A DNA stretch of 64,000 bases from a virus: positions 62,001 to 126,000 of the IMG/VR virus record IMGVR_UViG_3300034103_001442, one strand, 5' to 3'. Both the position numbers and the translations under genes were made by a program. The notes under the pieces are model-generated. The model did no database searches. It worked only from the letters and a program-made list of their open reading frames with translations, and was not told the origin of the DNA. Every line of letters starts with the position of its first letter. Positions within the stretch are counted from its first letter, which is position 1. Positions 20,467 through 62,824 of this stretch are shown in pieces.

Positions 20467-20474
20467 TATTTATA
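20467..20474 (-). promoter_or_regulatory. Late promoter TATAAATA
   Basis: Exact match to the T4 late promoter -10 element on the minus strand, between the 434-residue virion gene and the large charged structural gene. Confidence 0.7.
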
Positions 20475-23532: not shown

Positions 23533-23544
23533 TATTTATAAATA
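23533..23544. promoter_or_regulatory. Overlapping divergent late promoters
   Basis: TATTTATA at 23533-23540 (TATAAATA on minus) overlaps TATAAATA at 23537-23544 (plus) by four bases. Each points to a gene start about 20-30 bases away: the fusion nucleotidyltransferase on minus and the 450-residue gene on plus. Confidence 0.7.
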
Positions 23545-32102: not shown

Positions 32103-32357
32103 TTAGGCAACCACCTGAATGCGCGGCTCAATCCACTCGTCGTCGAACATGTGCTGACCAGGAAGGGGAGCAACGAAAGTGTCAGACCAGAACCTCTCTT
32201 CAACCTTACCCTCCCACACACGCTTGATCTTGTTGGCGCGGAAAGTGCCATCAGGAAGAATGGCAGTCACGAGACCGACATAATAACAATCCGTCGTGCT
32301 CGGAAAATCGAGCGACTTCACGACGGAACCTACTTCAACAGTGTTTTCAGTTTTCAT
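32103..32357 (-). CDS. Hypothetical protein, 84 aa, leaderless mRNA likely
   Basis: Beta-rich small protein (MKTENTVEVGSVVKSLDFPS; ILPDGTFRANKIKRVWEGKV) resembling small barrel folds. Its ATG lies exactly six bases after TATACT. No family recognised. Confidence 0.5.
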   Translation of the reverse strand: MKTENTVEVGSVVKSLDFPSTTDCYYVGLVTAILPDGTFRANKIKRVWEGKVEERFWSDTFVAPLPGQHMFDDEWIEPRIQVVA

Positions 32358-32430: not shown

Positions 32431-32588
32431 AAAAAAAGGGTGCCCTTTCGGACACCCTCCCACGATGCGTGTATCGAGAGGAACCCCACCTGCTGAGAAC
32501 CAGCTGCCTCGACTGTTCCAATCGTCTCTAACGAGACACTTGCCACTTTACGGACTCTAGAAACCGTAACCCACGCACCACATTGTGT
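32431..32588 (-). ncRNA. Candidate structured late ncRNA, about 158 nt
   Basis: A 235-base gap without a credible ORF. On the minus strand it starts just after a TATAAATA late promoter and ends in a strong terminator: GGGTGTCC-GAAA-GGGCACCC then seven T (32431-32457). Between them are stems TTACGG/CCGTAA (32548-32569), GTCTC/GAGAC (32524-32537) and GCTG/CAGC (32492-32504), with further partial pairing. Promoter, folded body and terminator together fit an independent small RNA. Ends are estimated from the promoter and terminator. Confidence 0.65.
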
Positions 32589-32593
32589 AGTCT

Positions 32594-32601
32594 TATTTAT
32601 A
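32594..32601 (-). promoter_or_regulatory. Late promoter TATAAATA for the ncRNA
   Basis: Exact T4-type late element on minus strand, in the gap after the helicase stop; the only transcript it can start is the structured RNA and whatever reads past its terminator. Confidence 0.65.
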
Positions 32602-32626: not shown

Positions 32627-34021
32627 TTATTTAAAATTTTGGAATTTTGTTTTGTCAAATTTGAACTCTGTGATCTTTTCGCCAAACTTTCCCTTATCAG
32701 CCACTGGACCATCATCCATGATATTGTGTTGGGCTGCAACCTCAACATCATAGAGTTTCATCTTTGACCTATCAATACCAACAACAAATCTTCGGTTGTT
32801 GCCTGGATCACCATAACGGTTCTTCAACTGCTTGACCAAAATTTGGTTCATGCGTTCAAGTTCCTCAGTGCTGATCAACGCAAACATAAAGTCAGCCGTA
32901 GCAGGTAGACCAAATGACTCGGAGGTATCTTCAAGTCCAACATCAGAGTTTGTAAAGCCAGACCTGTTCGTTTGGGTTGCTGATATAATTGGAACGTTAG
33001 ACTCAACCGCAAGCCCACGCAACTCTTCAGCAATTGCCTTGATGTACATATAACTGTTGACATTGCTGTTTGGCTTGATTCTTGATGAGGCGCAAATGTT
33101 CAGATAGTCAATGTAGATAATATCAGGGACAAAGTTTTTCTTGACTTTCAACTCACCAAGCAGGTGGCGAAAGTTTGCCGAGCCAGCACAAGCAGTTGGA
33201 TACTCTTTGACGATCAACTTACCCTTGGCTTTTTCTCTAATTTTAGTAATCTTGCGGTCATATGAGTCTTTTGGTAAGTCCTTGAGTTCATCAAGGGTGA
33301 CATCCATAAGGTTGGCATCAATACGTTCAGCAATCTTTTCCTCAGCCATTTCCATGGTGATATACAAAACGTTGTAACCACTGATAAGGTTGTATGCCGC
33401 GCAATGACACATAAACAAAGATTTACCAACGCCTGTTCCCGCGAGCGCGATGTTCAAAGTTTTTTTGGGCAAACCGCCATCGGTAATTTTGTTAAAGTAT
33501 TCGAGGTCAAATGGAATCTTTGACTCACGCTTATGATACAATTCAAAACGTTCATCAGAGTCGAGAAGGAAGTCGTGACCGATGCTACTATCAAATGATA
33601 CACCAAGCGCATCAGATAAAATTTTTGGAATTGATCCAACTGAAATCTTATCGTCTTTTTTATCAACCAACTTAATGGCTTCCATCAATGCATTGTATAG
33701 TGCCTTGTCTTTACAAAACTCTTCAGTGCGGTCAACCAACCAATCGAGTTCACGGTCTTCACTTTCTTTCAGTGTTCCAATCAACTCTTTGGTTAATTTA
33801 AACTGCTCTTCATTCAGATCAGTTGAACTTTGAATATCAATCAGCAACGCTTCCTTGGTCGGAAGTTTGTTATATTGTTTTACATACTTATCAATCAATT
33901 CAAAAATAACTTTGTGATTGCGGTCACGGAAATAATCGACACGCAAAAACGGTATGACCTTACGGGCATACTCTTCCCTATATATCAGGTTACCAAAAAT
34001 TATTTCTTCGATGTTGATCAT
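32627..34021 (-). CDS. 41: Replicative DNA helicase, gp41 (DnaB-type)
   Basis: 464 residues. N-terminal helical domain, then a RecA-fold motor: Walker A AGTGVGKS at about 194-201, Walker B region (FVPDIIYIDYLNI) and the SATQTNRSG segment. Unwinds the fork as a hexamer with the gp61 primase. Overlaps uvsX by four bases. Confidence 0.93.
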   Translation of the reverse strand: MINIEEIIFGNLIYREEYARKVIPFLRVDYFRDRNHKVIFELIDKYVKQYNKLPTKEALLIDIQSSTDLNEEQFKLTKELIGTLKESEDRELDWLVDRTEEFCKDKALYNALMEAIKLVDKKDDKISVGSIPKILSDALGVSFDSSIGHDFLLDSDERFELYHKRESKIPFDLEYFNKITDGGLPKKTLNIALAGTGVGKSLFMCHCAAYNLISGYNVLYITMEMAEEKIAERIDANLMDVTLDELKDLPKDSYDRKITKIREKAKGKLIVKEYPTACAGSANFRHLLGELKVKKNFVPDIIYIDYLNICASSRIKPNSNVNSYMYIKAIAEELRGLAVESNVPIISATQTNRSGFTNSDVGLEDTSESFGLPATADFMFALISTEELERMNQILVKQLKNRYGDPGNNRRFVVGIDRSKMKLYDVEVAAQHNIMDDGPVADKGKFGEKITEFKFDKTKFQNFK

Positions 34022-49334: not shown

Positions 49335-49351
49335 GGGGTGTTTTGGTTCGG

Positions 49352-49422
49352 TAGCGGAGCCGAGAGTTGCACTCGGAATTGAGGATTATGAGTCCTCTGT
49401 GATGCTGTTTCACTACCCCGCA
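49352..49422 (-). tRNA. tRNA-Met-like (CAU), atypical
   Basis: Cloverleaf with anticodon loop CTCATAA, D stem GTGA/TCAC and T stem CCGAG/CTCGG. The D loop lacks GG, the T loop is TGCAACT, the first acceptor pair would be U-U, and the end is CCG not CCA. It is separate from the main cluster; it may be degenerate or specialised. Confidence 0.6.
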
Positions 49423-49427
49423 ATAGA

Positions 49428-49661
49428 TCACTTCTCGCACTTGTCCAGCAAGTAGGCTTTCGCAGTACGTAATTCTGAGTTTGACAAAGAACCATCGTTG
49501 TTCTTGTCTGCTCTTTCAAAAAGTTTTGCATCAACATCGCAATAACGGTTGAGGTCTTCAAGTGTTACCTTACCATCTTGATCAAAATCGTAAATTGATA
49601 CACGGTCAACTGCCAATGCTGGTGTTGATGCGAGAGCGAGTGCTAGAATAAACTTCTTCAT
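49428..49661 (-). CDS. Secreted EF-hand protein, 77 aa
   Basis: Signal peptide (MKKFILALALASTPALA) followed by two EF-hand loops, DFDQDGKVTLEDL and DKNNDGSLSNSEL. Predicted periplasmic calcium-binding protein. ATGA overlap with the SGNH gene. The second phage-encoded EF-hand protein in the window. Confidence 0.7.
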   Translation of the reverse strand: MKKFILALALASTPALAVDRVSIYDFDQDGKVTLEDLNRYCDVDAKLFERADKNNDGSLSNSELRTAKAYLLDKCEK

Positions 49662-50074
49662 TTTGTGATTTCTCCAATTTTCTTATAACCGTTACCAGTG
49701 GGATGTATGCCATCTTTTGATAGGGATGGAATCCTAATAATCCAATCACCATACATCTCCGCAATACTTTCTACATACTCTTGAATTCTGACGATAGGGA
49801 TTTCGCTAGTCTTTGCATTACCAGCAGGAAGAATCCAGTATACCGTTTCTGCTTGTACTCGTTCGCGCAGTTTAAACAGTTCCTTTTCAGTCTTAATGTA
49901 CTTGTGGTCATTACTACCAAGACTGATTACAACAATCCTACCAGCAAATTTTTGCGGATACTTTTTGTTGAATTGTGTGGTATTGATTCCACTCGTAGCA
50001 TAAGCCACACACTCGGGGCGAGCCTGTGCAGTGCCAACAGCAATACTATCACCCAAAATCAAACAGTCAATCAT
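49658..50074 (-). CDS. SGNH/GDSL hydrolase
   Basis: 138 residues. Block I GDSIAVG with the nucleophile serine, block III SLGSND, and the catalytic Asp/His block DGIHPTGNGY. Would cleave an ester, such as an O-acetyl group on a surface glycan or peptidoglycan. No signal peptide, so it is cytoplasmic or virion-borne. Confidence 0.8.
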   Translation of the reverse strand: MIDCLILGDSIAVGTAQARPECVAYATSGINTTQFNKKYPQKFAGRIVVISLGSNDHKYIKTEKELFKLRERVQAETVYWILPAGNAKTSEIPIVRIQEYVESIAEMYGDWIIRIPSLSKDGIHPTGNGYKKIGEITK

Positions 50075-50136
50075 ATTTCTTTTTTATGCCAATAATTTGG
50101 TATACGACAAAATGTCGCACACTTACTTATATAGAA

Positions 50137-50256
50137 TCAGCCCTTTTTTTGGCTCTTTCTATTAATTTTTTTACCCTGACCGAAAATGCGCTCCCAGTTT
50201 TTGTCAAACTGTTTTTTTGGGATGCTCAACGGTCTTTGTTTACTACCTTTGGACAT
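50137..50256 (-). CDS. Small basic conserved phage protein, 39 aa
   Basis: MSKGSKQRPLSIPKKQFDKN then WERIFGQGKKINRKSQKKG. The MSKGSKQRP...FDxNWxxIFG pattern is conserved across many podo- and myoviruses. Function unknown. Lies one base after the HNH stop. Confidence 0.7.
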   Translation of the reverse strand: MSKGSKQRPLSIPKKQFDKNWERIFGQGKKINRKSQKKG

Positions 50257-50257
50257 A

Positions 50258-50830
50258 TCAATTTTTCCAAACACGACTGTTCTTTGGGATACTCGCCATC
50301 AAGTATTCCATTTGATCAGCGAGCACCTTACGATTTTTCAGTAGTATACGTTCATGCACAGTTGGTGCATATGGAACATAGATCAAATGCATCTTGGCTT
50401 CTTCTGGTGTACGGTTGCCTTTACGATGATTACATGAACGGCAAGCAGTGACACAGTTAGTCCACTGATTTGTACCGCCTCGGGATTTCGGATGAACATG
50501 GTCAATCGTCAATTGGCTTGATGAAAACTCATCACCACAGTATGCACAAATATGCCAGTCACGAGCATACAACGTCATTCGATCAGCAAATTTGGTTTGT
50601 TGATTGTAAAACTTATCACCAAGCAATGGACCACTGACACCGATGATTGAAGAAATATCAATGCGTGATTGCTCGCCAAAATTGTTACGCCCACCAAACA
50701 TGGACTTCACTTTGGTTCCCAATTCCCACAACACTTTTTCTTTTGCGTAATAACAAGCAGCCATTTCAAAATTCACCCAGTCTTTGGGCATGCCGCCTTT
50801 ATCAACAACCAATACCAGTGACACAATCAA
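50258..50830 (-). CDS. HNH endonuclease
   Basis: 190 residues. Zinc-binding CAYCG and CRSCNHRKGN flank the HNH core (SQLTIDHVHPKSRGGTNQW). Starts at GTG (50830) with GGAG. May be a homing enzyme or act in DNA processing; related proteins are common in T4-like phages near tRNA clusters. Confidence 0.85.
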   Translation of the reverse strand: MIVSLVLVVDKGGMPKDWVNFEMAACYYAKEKVLWELGTKVKSMFGGRNNFGEQSRIDISSIIGVSGPLLGDKFYNQQTKFADRMTLYARDWHICAYCGDEFSSSQLTIDHVHPKSRGGTNQWTNCVTACRSCNHRKGNRTPEEAKMHLIYVPYAPTVHERILLKNRKVLADQMEYLMASIPKNSRVWKN

Positions 50831-50833
50831 CTC

Positions 50834-50953
50834 CTACCAGTGATGGATAATATTTGCTATGATAAAAATACAAGTTACGATTTCTAGGGCACGGATACAC
50901 CACCAAATAACTGGTGTATGTTTTTCAACTTTTCTACTATATCTAGTGATCAT
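50834..50953 (-). CDS. Tiny membrane protein, 39 aa
   Basis: MITRYSRKVEKHTPVIWWCI then RALEIVTCIFIIANIIHHW: a basic N-terminus and one hydrophobic segment. A CATAAATA box ends five bases before its ATG. Its stop overlaps the HNH ribosome binding site. Confidence 0.45.
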   Translation of the reverse strand: MITRYSRKVEKHTPVIWWCIRALEIVTCIFIIANIIHHW

Positions 50954-50957
50954 ATTT

Positions 50958-50965
50958 TATTTATG
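50958..50965 (-). promoter_or_regulatory. Late promoter-like box CATAAATA
   Basis: Minus strand, directly after the tRNA-Leu 3-prime end; could start a late transcript over the tiny membrane gene and the HNH gene. Confidence 0.4.
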
Positions 50966-51047
50966 GTGCCCAGAAGAGGACTCGAACCTCCATGCCTTTC
51001 GACGGCAGATTCTAAGTCTGCTGTGTATACCATTCCACCATCTGGGC
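50964..51047 (-). tRNA. tRNA-Leu (UAG)
   Basis: 84 nt with long variable arm; anticodon loop CTTAGAA, T loop TTCGAGT, acceptor GCCCAGA, encoded CCA. Confidence 0.95.
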
Positions 51048-51058
51048 GTTTTAAATTT

Positions 51059-51148
51059 TGGCGGAAGCGGAAGGATTCGAACCTTCGTGTCCCGTTAAGG
51101 ACTGCTTGTTTTCAAGACAAGTGCGATCAACCACTCTGCCACGCTTCC
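51059..51148 (-). tRNA. tRNA-Ser (UGA)
   Basis: 90 nt, long variable arm, anticodon loop CTTGAAA, acceptor GGAAGCG/CGCTTCC, encoded CCA. Confidence 0.95.
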
Positions 51149-51160
51149 AAAATTTTATTC

Positions 51161-51478
51161 CTACGAATTTATCTTATAATACTCTTTCATGATAAAAAAG
51201 TCAAGCGCCTTAACAATCTTGCTAATCCTATAGGACTGATTGTCACCTGCCGCTTGACGTGTTTGATGGTTTACTAGATGTAACTCATAAACCAAATCTT
51301 CAAATGTAATACTTTTGTTTCTAATTTTCCGTAGTATTTCACGGTATTGTTCCGCGTATTGATATACTTCTTTGTTGTATGAAATACCACTAGCAGATGC
51401 ACCTTTGTTATCAAGCGCATCGCAAAGCATATCAACATGCGGCTGTAAATCTTCGAACCGTAATTTCTTTTGTGTCAT
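51161..51478 (-). CDS. Hypothetical protein within tRNA cluster, 105 aa
   Basis: MTQKKLRFEDLQPHVDMLCD start; helical and soluble, no recognised family. It contains the promoter for the two tRNA genes downstream in its 3-prime end. Ribosome binding site poor. Confidence 0.5.
   Translation of the reverse strand: MTQKKLRFEDLQPHVDMLCDALDNKGASASGISYNKEVYQYAEQYREILRKIRNKSITFEDLVYELHLVNHQTRQAAGDNQSYRISKIVKALDFFIMKEYYKINS
51176..51204 (-). promoter_or_regulatory. Promoter for Ser/Leu tRNAs, TTGACT-17-TATTAT
   Basis: -10 TATTAT 51176-51181, -35 TTGACT 51199-51204 (minus), just upstream of tRNA-Ser. Confidence 0.65.
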
Positions 51479-51483
51479 AAAAT

Positions 51484-51557
51484 TGGAGCGGGATGCGAGA
51501 ATCGAACTCGCGCGTAAACCTTGGCAAGGTTTCAGGCTACCATTACATCAATCCCGC
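51484..51557 (-). tRNA. tRNA-Gly (GCC)
   Basis: 74 nt; anticodon loop TTGCCAA, acceptor GCGGGAT/ATCCCGC, encoded CCA. Confidence 0.95.
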
Positions 51558-51564
51558 ATAAATA
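51557..51564 (+). promoter_or_regulatory. Late promoter-like box CATAAATA, plus strand
   Basis: Five bases upstream of the ATG of the small plus-strand ORF; the T4 late geometry would place +1 on that ATG. Confidence 0.4.
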
Positions 51565-51569
51565 GTTAT

Positions 51570-51746
51570 ATGGAAATATCGAATGTAAAAGAAAATAGTT
51601 TGATACAAGGTAATTTAGTCGAAAAACCTAAACCTGTACCGCAAGTACCTTCCGAGTCCAGTTTACTCTCAACACCGCCAGAAGAAATTCAAAAAAATAT
51701 AGAGCGTTGGAGAGAGTTTAATGAACGCATACATGTAGTTGTTTAA
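51570..51746 (+). CDS. Small plus-strand protein in tRNA cluster, 58 aa
   Basis: MEISNVKENSLIQGNLVEKP start and TPPEEIQKNIERWREFNERI end. It is the only plus-strand gene in the cluster and fills the gap between two minus-strand tRNAs. No ribosome binding site, but a late promoter-like box at leaderless distance. No family recognised. Confidence 0.45.
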   Translation: MEISNVKENSLIQGNLVEKPKPVPQVPSESSLLSTPPEEIQKNIERWREFNERIHVVV

Positions 51747-51748
51747 AA

Positions 51749-51823
51749 TGGTGCGCGATGAGAGGGTCGAACTCCCGACATTTGCCGTGTAAAGGCACTA
51801 CTCTACCACTGAGTTAATCGCGC
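51749..51823 (-). tRNA. tRNA-Val (UAC)
   Basis: 75 nt; anticodon loop TTTACAC, acceptor GCGCGAT/ATCGCGC, encoded CCA. Confidence 0.95.
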
Positions 51824-51824
51824 A

Positions 51825-52121
51825 TTAATTCGTCAACACTCTATATAGACCATAAGTGTCTACAATAGTCAATAGCAAATAATTAGCAAACATACCAAAA
51901 CTATTTCGTGTCCATGCCGCCCAAGCATACATGGCGCAACCACTCATCCAAAATGGATATAACAATTTGAGTGGTGGATCGGGAACAGTTACAGCCATAG
52001 CAACGGTGCAACCGATACTGATAATCCAAGCGATCACTTCAACGCAAAATCTAAACGGATACGATTGATAATCGGTTTTCGCCCAATTCCATGTATCAAC
52101 CATTGCTTTTTTGATAATCAT
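51825..52121 (-). CDS. Conserved membrane protein, 98 aa
   Basis: The block WAKTDYQSYPFRFCVEVIAW followed by IISIGCTVAMAVTVPDPP and CAMYAWAAWTRNSFGM is strongly conserved in marine T4-like phages. Three hydrophobic segments. Strong GAGGG ribosome binding site between tRNA genes. Function unknown. Confidence 0.65.
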   Translation of the reverse strand: MIIKKAMVDTWNWAKTDYQSYPFRFCVEVIAWIISIGCTVAMAVTVPDPPLKLLYPFWMSGCAMYAWAAWTRNSFGMFANYLLLTIVDTYGLYRVLTN

Positions 52122-52134
52122 AGTTCCCTCAATT

Positions 52135-52210
52135 TGGCGCGCTCGGCAGGATTCGAACCTGCGTATATCTGCTTAGAAGGCAGATGCCTCATCCACTAGA
52201 CTACGAGCGC
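52135..52210 (-). tRNA. tRNA-Arg (UCU)
   Basis: 76 nt; anticodon loop CTTCTAA, acceptor GCGCTCG/CGAGCGC, encoded CCA. Confidence 0.95.
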
Positions 52211-52211
52211 A

Positions 52212-52285
52212 TGGAGCAGAGTAGGAGAATCGAACTCCTTTGACCAGCTTGGAAGGCTGGGACACAACCAATATGCCAACTCTGC
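52212..52285 (-). tRNA. tRNA-Gly (UCC)
   Basis: 74 nt; anticodon loop CTTCCAA, acceptor GCAGAGT/ACTCTGC, encoded CCA. Confidence 0.95.
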
Positions 52286-52292
52286 GTAACAC

Positions 52293-52377
52293 TGGTGCGA
52301 CTGGTCGGACTTGAACCGACATGGCTAACGCCGACAGATTTTAAGTCTGTTGTGTATACCGATTCCACCACAGTCGC
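52293..52377 (-). tRNA. tRNA-Leu (UAA)
   Basis: 85 nt, long variable arm; anticodon loop CTTAAAA, acceptor GCGACTG, encoded CCA. Confidence 0.95.
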
Positions 52378-52382
52378 GAAAA

Positions 52383-52459
52383 TGGTCGGACAGAGAGGAT
52401 TCGAACCTCCGACCCTCTGCTCCCAAAGCAGATGCACTACCAGGCTGTGCTACTGTCCG
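52383..52459 (-). tRNA. tRNA-Pro (UGG)
   Basis: 77 nt; anticodon loop TTTGGGA, acceptor CGGACAG/CTGTCCG, encoded CCA. A strong promoter lies nine bases upstream. Confidence 0.95.
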
Positions 52460-52467
52460 ATTTATAC

Positions 52468-52496
52468 ATTATAAGTTAGTGATGAAATAAAGTCAA
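52468..52496 (-). promoter_or_regulatory. Internal tRNA-cluster promoter, TTGACT-17-TATAAT
   Basis: -10 TATAAT 52468-52473, -35 TTGACT 52491-52496 (minus): consensus sigma70 element between tRNA-Met and tRNA-Pro. Confidence 0.8.
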
Positions 52497-52497
52497 G

Positions 52498-52574
52498 TGG
52501 TGCGCCCACTAGGACTTGAACCTAGAATCAACAGATTATGAGTCTGCTGCATTAACCAATTATGCTATAGGCGC
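52498..52574 (-). tRNA. tRNA-Met or Ile2 (CAU)
   Basis: 77 nt; anticodon loop CTCATAA, encoded CCA. CAU can be Met or, after lysidine modification, Ile; the sequence alone does not decide. Confidence 0.9.
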
Positions 52575-52578
52575 GAAA

Positions 52579-52653
52579 TGGAGTTGCGGACTGGACTCGC
52601 ACCAGCATAGAACAGTTTTGCAGACTGTCGCCTAACTTCTCAGCCACCGCAAC
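52579..52653 (-). tRNA. tRNA-Cys (GCA)
   Basis: 75 nt; anticodon loop CTGCAAA, acceptor GTTGCGG/CCGCAAC, encoded CCA. T loop is TGCGAGT, with G in place of the usual second T. Confidence 0.9.
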
Positions 52654-52654
52654 A

Positions 52655-52725
52655 AAATTTACTGATCGGTAAAATTTTGTTAACAATAATTAACAATGTC
52701 AAAAAATTTACTGATCGGGAAAATT
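52655..52725. repeat. Two near-palindromic direct repeats between tRNA genes
   Basis: AAAATTTACTGATCGG followed by N and AAAATTT occurs at about 52655 and again at about 52701. Each copy can fold on itself (AAAATTTAC against GTAAAATTTT, loop TGATCG). Position between tRNA-Cys and a CAU tRNA suggests a processing or insertion scar. Confidence 0.6.
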
Positions 52726-52801
52726 TGGTAGCAACGGTTGGACTCGAACCAACGATAAACTCCGTATGAAGGAGGTGCATTAGCCACTATGCTACGTTGC
52801 C
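52726..52801 (-). tRNA. tRNA (CAU), Met or Ile2
   Basis: 76 nt; anticodon loop TTCATAC with a C-U mismatch at the stem top, acceptor GGCAACG/CGTTGCT, encoded CCA. Confidence 0.85.
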
Positions 52802-52803
52802 AT

Positions 52804-52890
52804 TGGCGGAAGGCAGTGTACTCGAAACACATTCCCAAAGGGAACCATCTGTTTAGCAAACAGCGACAGATCCTCTCTGCTTTACCTTCC
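52804..52890 (-). tRNA. tRNA-Ser (GCU)
   Basis: 87 nt, long variable arm; anticodon loop TTGCTAA, acceptor GGAAGGT, encoded CCA. Confidence 0.93.
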
Positions 52891-52895
52891 TAAAA

Positions 52896-52972
52896 TGGCG
52901 ACTCGGATGGGACTTGAACCCACGACCTCATGCGTGACAGGCATGTGAACTAACCAACTGTTCTACCGAGCC
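52896..52972 (-). tRNA. tRNA-Asp (GUC)
   Basis: 77 nt; anticodon loop CTGTCAC, acceptor GGCTCGG/CCGAGTC, encoded CCA. Confidence 0.95.
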
Positions 52973-52976
52973 AACT

Positions 52977-53053
52977 TGGTGGGACAAGATGGATTCGAAC
53001 CATCGACCTCAGTCTTATCAGGACTGTGCGCTAACCAACTGTGCCATTGTCCC
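52977..53053 (-). tRNA. tRNA-Ile (GAU)
   Basis: 77 nt; anticodon loop CTGATAA, acceptor GGGACAA/TTGTCCC, encoded CCA. Confidence 0.95.
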
Positions 53054-53059
53054 GAATAA

Positions 53060-53146
53060 TGGTGGGAAAGGAAGGATTCGAACCTACTCAGCCGATTGGC
53101 GACAGATTTACAGTCTGTTGTGACTCTCCAACTTCACCGCTTGCCC
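53060..53146 (-). tRNA. tRNA-Tyr (GUA)
   Basis: 87 nt, long variable arm; anticodon loop CTGTAAA, encoded CCA. Acceptor GGGCAAG/CTTTCCC and the T stem each hold one mismatch. Confidence 0.9.
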
Positions 53147-53155
53147 ACATAAACT

Positions 53156-53229
53156 TGGCTGAGGCGCATGGATTCGAACCACGATAAGCAGGATCAAAAC
53201 CTGCTGTCCTGCCGTTAGACGACGCCTCA
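53156..53229 (-). tRNA. tRNA-Gln (UUG)
   Basis: 74 nt; anticodon loop TTTTGAT, acceptor TGAGGCG/CGCCTCA, encoded CCA. Confidence 0.95.
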
Positions 53230-53461
53230 AAAATAAAATGCTTCCCCCTGCAGGCGGTTTTTGTCGTCCCACCACAAACACTTATGTGGTATCCGCATCC
53301 CAACACAGGGAGATTGTCGTATTGCCAACGCTGAACTTCATCAGGGAGATCACTATGGGAATCCAACCCATTTCTCATCATGCGTGTCGCACTAGCCATT
53401 GGATTCATGGCACGTTATGATAGCCGACACGTACATTGCTGCAGAGGTGTCGGGCATATTT
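53230..53461 (-). ncRNA. Structured non-tRNA segment 1 in the tRNA cluster
   Basis: A 230-base gap with no convincing gene. On the minus strand CCGACAC and GTGTCGG form a 7-bp stem (about 53422-53451), and CCTGCAGGGGG lies at the other end. A reading frame here runs into tRNA sequence and is not credible. May be a stable RNA released by processing of the tRNA precursor, as T4 RNAs C and D are. Confidence 0.4.
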
Positions 53462-53536
53462 TGGTGGAGGATGAGAGAATCGAACTCTCAACTCTGCGAT
53501 GCAAACGCAGCGTGTTCCCATTAGCACTAATCCCCC
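53462..53536 (-). tRNA. tRNA-Ala (UGC)
   Basis: 75 nt; anticodon loop TTTGCAT, acceptor GGGGGAT/ATCCTCC, encoded CCA. Confidence 0.95.
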
Positions 53537-53698
53537 AATAAGGTGTGGGCTACCATTTAAGGTTTGTTCTTAATCCTTACCCCCACACAGCAAGGTTGCG
53601 ATCCGTTCTGCCTCATAATTCGATCAGTGCTACCGAAACGGATAAGCCCTTACACTGATAGGATGAACCCGACAGAGCGCGCCTGCAGGTCACCAAGA
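53537..53698 (-). ncRNA. Structured non-tRNA segment 2 in the tRNA cluster
   Basis: Contains GTGTGGG paired with CCCACAC (about 53542-53588) enclosing AAGG/CCTT, and ATCCGTTT paired with AACGGAT (about 53597-53645). No T-loop sequence, so not a tRNA. No ORF that stays clear of the tRNAs. Confidence 0.4.
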
Positions 53699-53773
53699 TG
53701 GCTGGCGAGGATGGGATCGAACCATCGACAGGCTGATTAACAGTCAGCTGATCTACCTCTGATCTACTCGCCA
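53699..53773 (-). tRNA. tRNA-Asn (GUU)
   Basis: 75 nt; anticodon loop CTGTTAA, acceptor TGGCGAG/CTCGCCA, encoded CCA. Confidence 0.95.
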
Positions 53774-53785
53774 AAAAAATTAAAC

Positions 53786-53860
53786 TGGCTCCCCGATACG
53801 GACTCGAACCGCAACCAACAGTTTTGGAGACTGCGATGCTACCAATTACACCATCGAGGA
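53786..53860 (-). tRNA. tRNA-Trp (CCA)
   Basis: 75 nt; anticodon loop CTCCAAA, acceptor TCCTCGA/TCGGGGA, encoded 3-prime CCA. Confidence 0.93.
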
Positions 53861-53872
53861 ACAATCACAATA

Positions 53873-53948
53873 TGGTGAGACCACTGGGACTCGAACCCAG
53901 AACTTACGAGTTAAAAGCACGTTACTCTACCAGTTGAGTTATGGTCTC
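53873..53948 (-). tRNA. tRNA-Lys (UUU)
   Basis: 76 nt; anticodon loop CTTTTAA, acceptor GAGACCA/TGGTCTC, encoded CCA; one mismatch in the anticodon stem. Confidence 0.93.
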
Positions 53949-53962
53949 AAATTCATAATATA

Positions 53963-54037
53963 TGGTGAACCCAAGGGAATTCGAATCCCTATTCCATCCG
54001 TGAAAGGGATGTGTCCTAACCGTTAGACGATGGGTCC
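53963..54037 (-). tRNA. tRNA-Glu (UUC)
   Basis: 75 nt; anticodon loop CTTTCAC, acceptor GGACCCA/TGGGTTC, encoded CCA. Confidence 0.95.
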
Positions 54038-54039
54038 GC

Positions 54040-54129
54040 AAAAGGTGCTGGTTACTCATCCAGCGTCACAATGTGCTTCGGGGTGACAGTCTCCGCTGCT
54101 ACGAACTTCTGATAGCAGTCAGGTTAAAT
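54040..54129 (-). ncRNA. Structured non-tRNA segment 3 in the tRNA cluster
   Basis: Three consecutive stems on the minus strand: CTGCTA/TAGCAG, GTCAC/GTGAC and CTGG/CCAG. Compact enough to be a 90-nt stable RNA between tRNA-Thr and tRNA-Glu. Confidence 0.45.
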
Positions 54130-54205
54130 TGGTGCCTTCAGAGAGACTCGAACTCCCAACCTACTGATTACAAATCAGTTGCACTACCAATTGTGCTATG
54201 AAGGC
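54130..54205 (-). tRNA. tRNA-Thr (UGU)
   Basis: 76 nt; anticodon loop TTTGTAA, acceptor GCCTTCA/TGAAGGC, encoded CCA. Confidence 0.95.
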
Positions 54206-61454: not shown

Positions 61455-62824
61455 TCAAAAAACGCCTCAAGGCTCGCATTTACACCAACAACGCCATCTT
61501 CATCTTTCATGTTGTGTTTCTTTAAGTAGTCCAACCACTCTTCACTTTCCCACATTCCTGGGCTGATACCATTCCAAAGTGGTCGCCAAAACTTATGATC
61601 CTTGTTTGCACGACGTTCATCAACAAACTTACGACGCAGTGTTTCATACTCCCAAGACTTCAACTCGAGCATTTTCTCGCGGAAGTAACAAACAAGTGAA
61701 ATACGCTCGCTCTTTGGATCATCTGGATTATTCAAAACAATCGGTGTGTTACCATGAATAATCTCATGATTGTTAACAAGGAGCAAGTCTCCAGGACGAA
61801 CGTTGACCGCTACACGGTACTCGGGGAAAATAAGGTAGCCACCAGTATAGTTACCAGTGCCTACAACCAGCAGATTACTCAAACCGTCATTCAAGTCACC
61901 AGCGTCACGGTGGGCAGCAGTACGGAAAGTCTTATTGACCGTGATTGTAGTGAATACAGTTTCAGGGACAAGAAAACGTTTATCAAGTTTATCAGCCGCT
62001 ACTTTTTGGTTTGACCAACGCCATGGCATTAAGTCTTTGAAGCCACGGTTGAGTGATTGTAAGAATGGATAAGAAAGGGCAAACTTGTCAGGGTGTTTTT
62101 CGGTGTATGAAGTCGCACGACCATATGGAATGCGTGGGTAACGATCATACCAACCAGCAACACCAGAATAAACTGACTTGGCATAGTTTGTAACTGAAAT
62201 CCAGTCATTGACTACACGCTCCGCATCAGCACGTTGCTCAGCCGCTGGCTTGTCCAATATTGAATCAACCCACTTATCAAACCAACCGTGATACTCTGGG
62301 TAAACCTTGGTCACCTCAGAGCGTAGCCAAACTTGACCACGTGTATCATCTGGGTTTGCGCGTGGTTTACCCGAGTGACGCTCGCGAATTTTTTCAACTG
62401 ATTCATCTTGAATGAGTTTTGCCGAGTTGTCGAGGAAAAAATCTAGAATTTCTAGTTCGTACTCGGTGACCCAATCGCGACCTTTGCGACCAGCAGTTGT
62501 AAGAAGTTCGCCTCTTGGACCAGCAGCAAGACCTCGGTTTTGACTCTCAGTTGCGGCTTCACGCAATCCATTGTAGGCTTGCTCTTGCTCCTCTTTGGTG
62601 AAAAAGTTTTTACGGAATTTAAAAGCAACAGTGCGTTCATCAGTACCATCAGCACAGTTGTTACAATCTTGATTGCAGTTTTCCTTCGTTGTAATATCAC
62701 AAACGGGAGGCATGAAACAATCAGTGTCTTCCTCGACTAGAATGTCGTAGTGACTTTCATCTAGATAATGACCGAGCAAATGCTCACAGTCAATTTTCTC
62801 TTTTGCTGTGATTACTTTAACCAT
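61451..62824 (-). CDS. TET/JBP-like 2-oxoglutarate/Fe(II) dioxygenase
   Basis: 457 residues. The iron-binding triad is visible: AHRDAGD (H305, D307) and NNHEIIHGNT (H357), with YTGGYLIFPEYRVAVNVRPG between and R374 (SERISLVCYF) as the 2-oxoglutarate arginine. These blocks fit the TET/JBP family that oxidises 5-methylpyrimidines in DNA. Four cysteines at 42-57 may bind a metal. First gene of the putative hypermodification cassette, after peptide deformylase. Confidence 0.85.
   Translation of the reverse strand: MVKVITAKEKIDCEHLLGHYLDESHYDILVEEDTDCFMPPVCDITTKENCNQDCNNCADGTDERTVAFKFRKNFFTKEEQEQAYNGLREAATESQNRGLAAGPRGELLTTAGRKGRDWVTEYELEILDFFLDNSAKLIQDESVEKIRERHSGKPRANPDDTRGQVWLRSEVTKVYPEYHGWFDKWVDSILDKPAAEQRADAERVVNDWISVTNYAKSVYSGVAGWYDRYPRIPYGRATSYTEKHPDKFALSYPFLQSLNRGFKDLMPWRWSNQKVAADKLDKRFLVPETVFTTITVNKTFRTAAHRDAGDLNDGLSNLLVVGTGNYTGGYLIFPEYRVAVNVRPGDLLLVNNHEIIHGNTPIVLNNPDDPKSERISLVCYFREKMLELKSWEYETLRRKFVDERRANKDHKFWRPLWNGISPGMWESEEWLDYLKKHNMKDEDGVVGVNASLEAFFE

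Follow-up and report, generated by a model that had tools for sequence, protein, structure and literature searches.

A structured late-type RNA gene beside the gp41-like helicase gene, one of an undescribed family in uncultured T4-like viruses

What is encoded in the gap that follows the gp41-like helicase gene of an uncultured T4-like virus? The window analysed here, 64,000 nt in length, is positions 62,001–126,000 of IMG/VR record IMGVR_UViG_3300034103_001442. A first-pass annotation, made without database searches, had placed in this gap a dedicated late small RNA of 158 nt with its own promoter and terminator. The gap was given as 235 bases; measured from the gp41 stop (32627) to the start of the next ORF (32357), it is about 269 nt. 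On the minus strand, from 32601 to 32431, it contains a late-promoter box, then a folded body, then a GAAA-capped terminator (Table 1).

Table 1. Features of the predicted RNA gene and its neighbours in the window
Feature	Position	Strand	Basis
T4-type late promoter box TATAAATA (-13 to -6)	32594–32601	-	Sequence; box common to homologues
Predicted 158-nt late RNA	32431–32588	-	Start inferred from T4 late promoter spacing; fold z = -3.96
Conserved four-way-junction core	32464–32579	-	Covariance models R1 and R2
P1 5' strand GGUGCGUG	32572–32579	-	8 of 8 P1 pairs with double changes; 93% of cells paired
P1 3' strand CACGCAUC	32464–32471	-	Covariation
P2 hairpin	32548–32569	-	5 of 5 pairs with double changes
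Junction J2/3, in the window AGUGGCAAG (family AGAGGCAAG)	32539–32547	-	GGCA in 98 of 98 parsed members
P3 hairpin	32523–32538	-	Covarying; clear in single folds; 55% of cells in model
Junction J3/4, in the window GGAACA (family GGAAUA)	32514–32519	-	GGAA in 98 of 98 parsed members
P4 5' strand GUCGAG	32508–32513	-	100% of cells paired
P4 3' strand CUCGAU	32473–32478	-	100% of cells paired
Extra hairpin within P4 bulge	32492–32504	-	Only some members
P5 hairpin AGG-UGGGGUU-CCU	32479–32491	-	Varying stem, conserved loop
Intrinsic terminator hairpin, GAAA loop	32435–32460	-	Fold
Terminator seven-T tract	32431–32437	-	Sequence
gp41-like replicative helicase gene, fixed upstream neighbour	32627–34021	-	phrog_19, E 6e-127
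84-aa ORF downstream, without family match	32103–32357	-	ORF list and family search

The unconstrained minimum free energy fold of the 158 nt has -60.8 kcal/mol (z = -3.96), and none of 200 shuffles was as good. It consists of four stems, where at least three had been proposed, and of the terminator, whose GAAA loop and seven T had already been described and whose stem has 11 bp. A simple terminator scan did not pick up this terminator, probably because G-U pairs lengthen the stem into the T-run. Counted from a T4-like start near 32588 to the final T at 32431, the RNA would be 158 nt long, a predicted length, as no transcript has been seen. The annotation had seen no ORF that fits. Two short mechanical ORFs of 49 and 41 aa overlap the RNA on the minus strand, but loop lengths vary freely among the homologues and no frame is kept, and a coding reading was rejected. 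Scans of the gap for tRNAs and Rfam families gave no match. At the predicted 5' end, before P1 (32580–32591, minus strand), is the word UACACWAUGUGG, which could form a small CAC/GUG hairpin. It is conserved in the window's clade (the GUGCGUGG clade) and absent from other clades.

The first relatives were viral contigs fetched via gp41, in which the region after the helicase gene aligns at 83% in three loci (L001–L003) and at 69% in two others (L004–L005). Conserved words from the alignment of these five were then used in exact-pattern searches independent of gp41, which yielded many more loci, and anchored folding gave a single architecture in all of them. Because the first MAFFT alignments misplaced P1 between subfamilies, covariance model R1 was based on a single marine-type subfamily (17 sequences, the window excluded), and the rest were aligned to it. 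R1 recovered all 84 candidate loci and also the window RNA, which it had not seen (33.9 bits, E 1.9e-6). Model R2 scored the window core at 63.8 bits, its sole match in the 151.7-kb virus record, and the RNA is single-copy in the genome and contig records searched. A pattern that held only the two junction words brought in a second set, 47 members that had played no part in the model.

Pattern and covariance searches together found at least 131 members in IMG/VR viral contigs, with 99 distinct sequences. All are on uncultured contigs, many of them near-identical. The count is a lower bound and diversity is also underestimated, and the identity of the core was in part selected for, as the seeds were exact patterns; the E-values of the covariance models are rough. 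The RNA was not found in the 18 cultured or single-cell T4-like records searched, and model searches gave no homologue in T4, S-SM2, P-SSM2, Melnitz, ACG-2014d, S-CRM01, DLP6, phiM12, S-CREM1, P-TIM68 and others. A blastn search of 50,697 phage records gave no real match, the short matches being to terminators or within genes. In bacterial genomes there were 59 pattern matches, none of which scored as a member, and no host version was seen.

All members share one order of parts: P1, P2, AGAGGCAAG, P3, GGAAUA, and P4 capped by P5. P1 has 8 bp and closes a four-way junction, and P2 starts 2–3 nt after it. P4 has 6 bp and an asymmetric bulge of 4–17 nt, which in some members, the window included, holds an extra hairpin; P5 is a 3-bp stem with a 7-nt loop. 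In the first set, of 78 distinct sequences after alignment, pairing holds in 88.9% of cells, double changes occur in 24 of the 26 pairs, and covariation scores 0.562; slid controls have 29–57% of cells paired and a score of at most 0.111. The second set gave the same pairing (88.9%) and a score of 0.681, with slid controls at most at 50% and 0.181. P4 and P5 were paired in 100% of cells in both sets. The 55% for P3 is a lower bound, this hairpin being variable in length and poorly aligned by the model. With P3 left out, there are 163 G-U pairs and 10 A-C pairs, and this tolerance of G-U over A-C indicates that this strand acts as RNA. The helices vary freely and the junctions do not – GGCA in J2/3 and GGAA in J3/4 are near-invariant letters, present in all 98 parsed members. 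Variable helices around fixed junction and loop letters are what would be expected of a scaffold that displays a binding face or a tertiary core. A pseudoknot between GGAA of J3/4 and UUCC of P5 was considered and rejected, as P5 also occurs as CAC/GUG and as other stems without UUCC.

The signals for transcription are kept across the family as well. One of three late boxes (TATAAATA, ACTAAATA or CATAAATA) was found in 127 of the 127 members that have 60 nt of upstream sequence, and in 0.6% of control windows; in the homologues it nearly always stands 13–24 nt ahead of P1. A second, overlapping tally (128 members) had 111 with TATAAATA, 14 with ACTAAATA and 3 with CATAAATA. TATAAATA is the late consensus of phage T4 (PMC2984593; PMC2988020), and ACTAAATA, carried for example by L260, L265, L278, L393, L396 and L407, matches the variant a/gCTAAATA of phage Aeh1 (PMC2988020). 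The likeness to the Aeh1 variant hints at lineage-specific late sigma factors. The sequence mark of a T4-type late unit, a gp55-type box about 6 nt before the predicted start, is present; its other mark, late expression dependent on gp55, gp33 and gp45, is inferred from the box alone. At the other end, a hairpin and T-run follow the RNA in 94 of 98 distinct members, and the four exceptions show hairpins by eye. The whole window has 7 exact copies of TATAAATA vs 1.95 expected: besides the one before the RNA, two form an overlapping pair on opposite strands at 23533–23544, and others are at 20467 (-), 37819 (+), 39967 (-) and 59173 (-).

A promoter, a terminator, no conserved ORF and a structure under selection are the attributes of a stand-alone structured non-coding RNA gene, and all four are met. 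The proposal of such a gene, with late-type signals, is thus supported, and the covariance search in related viruses that had been put forward as its check turned up compensatory changes and did so again in the second set. That the structure is kept by compensatory change in homologues is decisive for accepting the observation as real. The transcript itself, its ends and its timing have not been shown, and lateness is inferred from the box. We put at about 85% the probability that the locus encodes, as a gene of its own, a late structured non-coding RNA that belongs to an undescribed family in a branch of the T4-like viruses; there is as yet no transcript, timing, partner or phenotype. By inference, the late RNA polymerase would make an RNA of about 110–160 nt that acts in trans. 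Its freely varying helices would serve as scaffold, and AGAGGCAAG, GGAAUA and the apical UGGGGUU, all near-invariant, would be the working face for one conserved partner. The partner is unidentified; contact would most likely be through a ribonucleoprotein or an RNA-RNA docking site.

Several other roles can be imagined for such an RNA. It could act against a host defence system or an RNase, as decoy or antagonist, or it could modify RNA polymerase. A fixed loop displayed on a changing scaffold fits a decoy, and restriction to certain clades would go with host-specific use. Nothing in the sequence ties it to a known defence RNA, however, and late expression would be late for counter-defence. 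This role is unlikely.

Somewhat harder to sustain is a role in packaging, in the virion or in assembly, like that of the phi29 pRNA or of ROOL and GOLLD cages. Late promoter, single copy, structure and lack of coding would all suit it. The pRNA is a small structured phage RNA, but its architecture and phage family are different, none of its loop-loop complementarity is kept in the new family, and there is no packaging evidence for the new RNA; T4-type terminases are not known to need an RNA. GOLLD and ROOL are likewise phage-encoded structured RNAs of unknown function, and GOLLD expression rises during lysis, but both are far larger (GOLLD often >800 nt) and mostly near tRNA islands (PMC12286853). 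Rfam gave no link between them and the new RNA.

The loop of P5 offers another lead. The P5 stem takes many forms (AGG/CCU, CGG/CCG, UGG/CCA, CAC/GUG, CAG/CUG, UAG/CUA, GGG/CCC and CCG/CGG), while the loop is UGGGGUU in 129 of 131 members and UGGAGGUU in the other two. The second set was found without using the loop, yet it carries UGGGGUU in all except two UGGAGGUU members. In E. coli 23S rRNA, the P-loop hairpin is GACUGGGGCGGUC, with the stem GAC-UGGGGCG-GUC; like the UGGN of T-boxes, the P-loop pairs with the CCA ends of tRNAs. The P5 hairpin might imitate the P-loop or work like UGGN, so that late in infection the RNA would capture tRNA CCA ends or P-loop-recognising factors. The geometry is the same (3-bp stem, 7-nt loop), five of the seven loop letters are those of the E. 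coli P-loop, and UGG is kept in all members, the two UGGAGGUU variants included. The 3' end of tRNA-His is ACCCCA, to which UGGGGU is complementary, and the phage's own tRNA set lacks His: its 22 tRNA genes are in an array at 49350–54205 of the window (minus strand) with none for His or Phe, and the rest of the 151.7-kb record has no further tRNA. Against this, five matching letters are few, the complementarity to tRNA-His may be coincidence, and the rest of the RNA resembles neither 23S rRNA, a T-box nor an anticodon-reading stem. The likeness to the 23S P-loop (H80) or the T-box UGGN bulge is confined to the apical hairpin with its G-rich UGG(GG) loop. The RNA does not qualify as a T-box riboswitch: there is no Rfam match, UGG is in a hairpin loop and not in a bulge, and stem I, specifier and downstream regulated gene are absent. 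The likeness is only a lead, of sequence and geometry without binding data, and mimicry is about as doubtful as packaging. Still more speculative is the full scenario, set in T4-like viruses of uncultured aquatic bacteria, in which a late copy of the P-loop on a four-way scaffold would seize tRNA acceptor ends or P-loop factors and redirect translation or the fate of tRNAs for virion production.

An RNA that regulates late or host mRNAs by base pairing, whether to silence or to activate them, would have its own promoter and terminator, the usual build of an sRNA gene. The P2 and P3 loops vary freely, however, and are ill suited as seeds; those unpaired letters that are conserved are rich in purines and not anti-Shine-Dalgarno; and conservation lies in the junction fold. 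This role is improbable.

None of the known RNA families accounts for the locus. At the gathering threshold, Rfam 15 (4227 families) found only tRNAs in the window and in ten other loci, and its E-value mode, applied to three members, gave weak and inconsistent matches far below threshold and mostly over the terminator. Among these, L20 leader, SorY and STnc390 were rejected, being inconsistent between members. No description of the RNA family was found in the literature searched, most subscription papers being outside the search. Virulent phages have few structured RNA classes that are well supported, and in T4-like phages we know of no gene dedicated to a late RNA of this kind. The nearest cases are rnaC and rnaD of T4 (species 1 and 2), which are likewise small RNAs of a T4-type phage, stable and without known function; they lie in the tRNA operon, however, and the new family is beside gp41. 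The models did not match at rnaC or rnaD (R1 had only an 18.6-bit chance match elsewhere in T4, R2 none), so that the RNA has neither the homology nor the tRNA-operon place that membership would entail. The T4-like cyanophage S-PM2 also has a non-coding RNA, CfrI, which runs antisense to psbA and to a gene for a homing endonuclease (PMC2984593), whereas the new RNA is intergenic, structured and next to gp41. The first-pass annotation had called the class rarely described in T4-like phages; the wording understates the case, as no described family matches. The novelty is that of a new RNA family without known relative, not of a proven new mechanism.

The position of the RNA next to gp41 raises the question of whether it belongs to that gene. 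In every locus that includes gp41 (124 of 124) it is 3' of that gene, with a median distance of roughly 300–370 nt; it shares the strand of gp41 in 86 of them and is on the opposite strand in 38. In the gp41 tree, the opposite-strand members come together as a single well-supported clade, apart from the isolate phiM12, in which the RNA is missing, and the same-strand members fall into another clade. The tree suggests that the RNA was inherited, inverted once and lost several times, although two origins remain possible. A cis element of the gp41 operon or of the gene that follows, be it a 3' UTR, an attenuator or a riboswitch, would explain why the RNA always adjoins gp41. The opposite-strand clade largely refutes it; in addition, the RNA has its own promoter and terminator on its own strand, and the genes downstream differ between loci, so that the marks of a cis-regulatory leader or riboswitch are not met. 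Because one clade has it on the strand opposite gp41, the RNA is read as an independent gene, and we give the cis reading very little weight. Even less credible is a DNA element such as a cruciform or origin, for which the location in a replication gene cluster could speak, since G-U is allowed and A-C avoided and the RNA is always behind a late promoter.

The helicases of the viruses that carry the RNA have diverged to about 57% identity. A single copy, kept at one address across such diverged helicases and inverted once without loss, suggests a function worth keeping. With a conserved loop, a variable scaffold and a known late promoter, the family is a clear object for tests, and its covariance model can be used at once for annotating aquatic viromes and for searching metatranscriptomes.

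Other features of these loci are of a minor kind. Two members (L258, 660–773; L268, 368–480) have no gp41 in the stretch fetched, and in L258 a metallophosphoesterase gene follows. At most loci of both strand types, the interval between gp41 and the RNA has a small ORF ending LNxGGGFDGxTPxFF (for example L004, 4603–4821; L426, 1449–1664; L106; and L262). This ORF has a weak match to phrog_29065, and tblastn found no homologue among cultured phage isolates. An ARAGORN call of a permuted tmRNA, predicted only, with the tag ANDSNYDMALAA, is at L453 8546–8856 on the minus strand (G000:C1 48546–48856). In three loci gp41 is in pieces (L115, 1815–3693; L259, 5195–7429; L480, 10044–12852), with inserts of roughly 0.3–1.6 kb that are perhaps introns or inteins.
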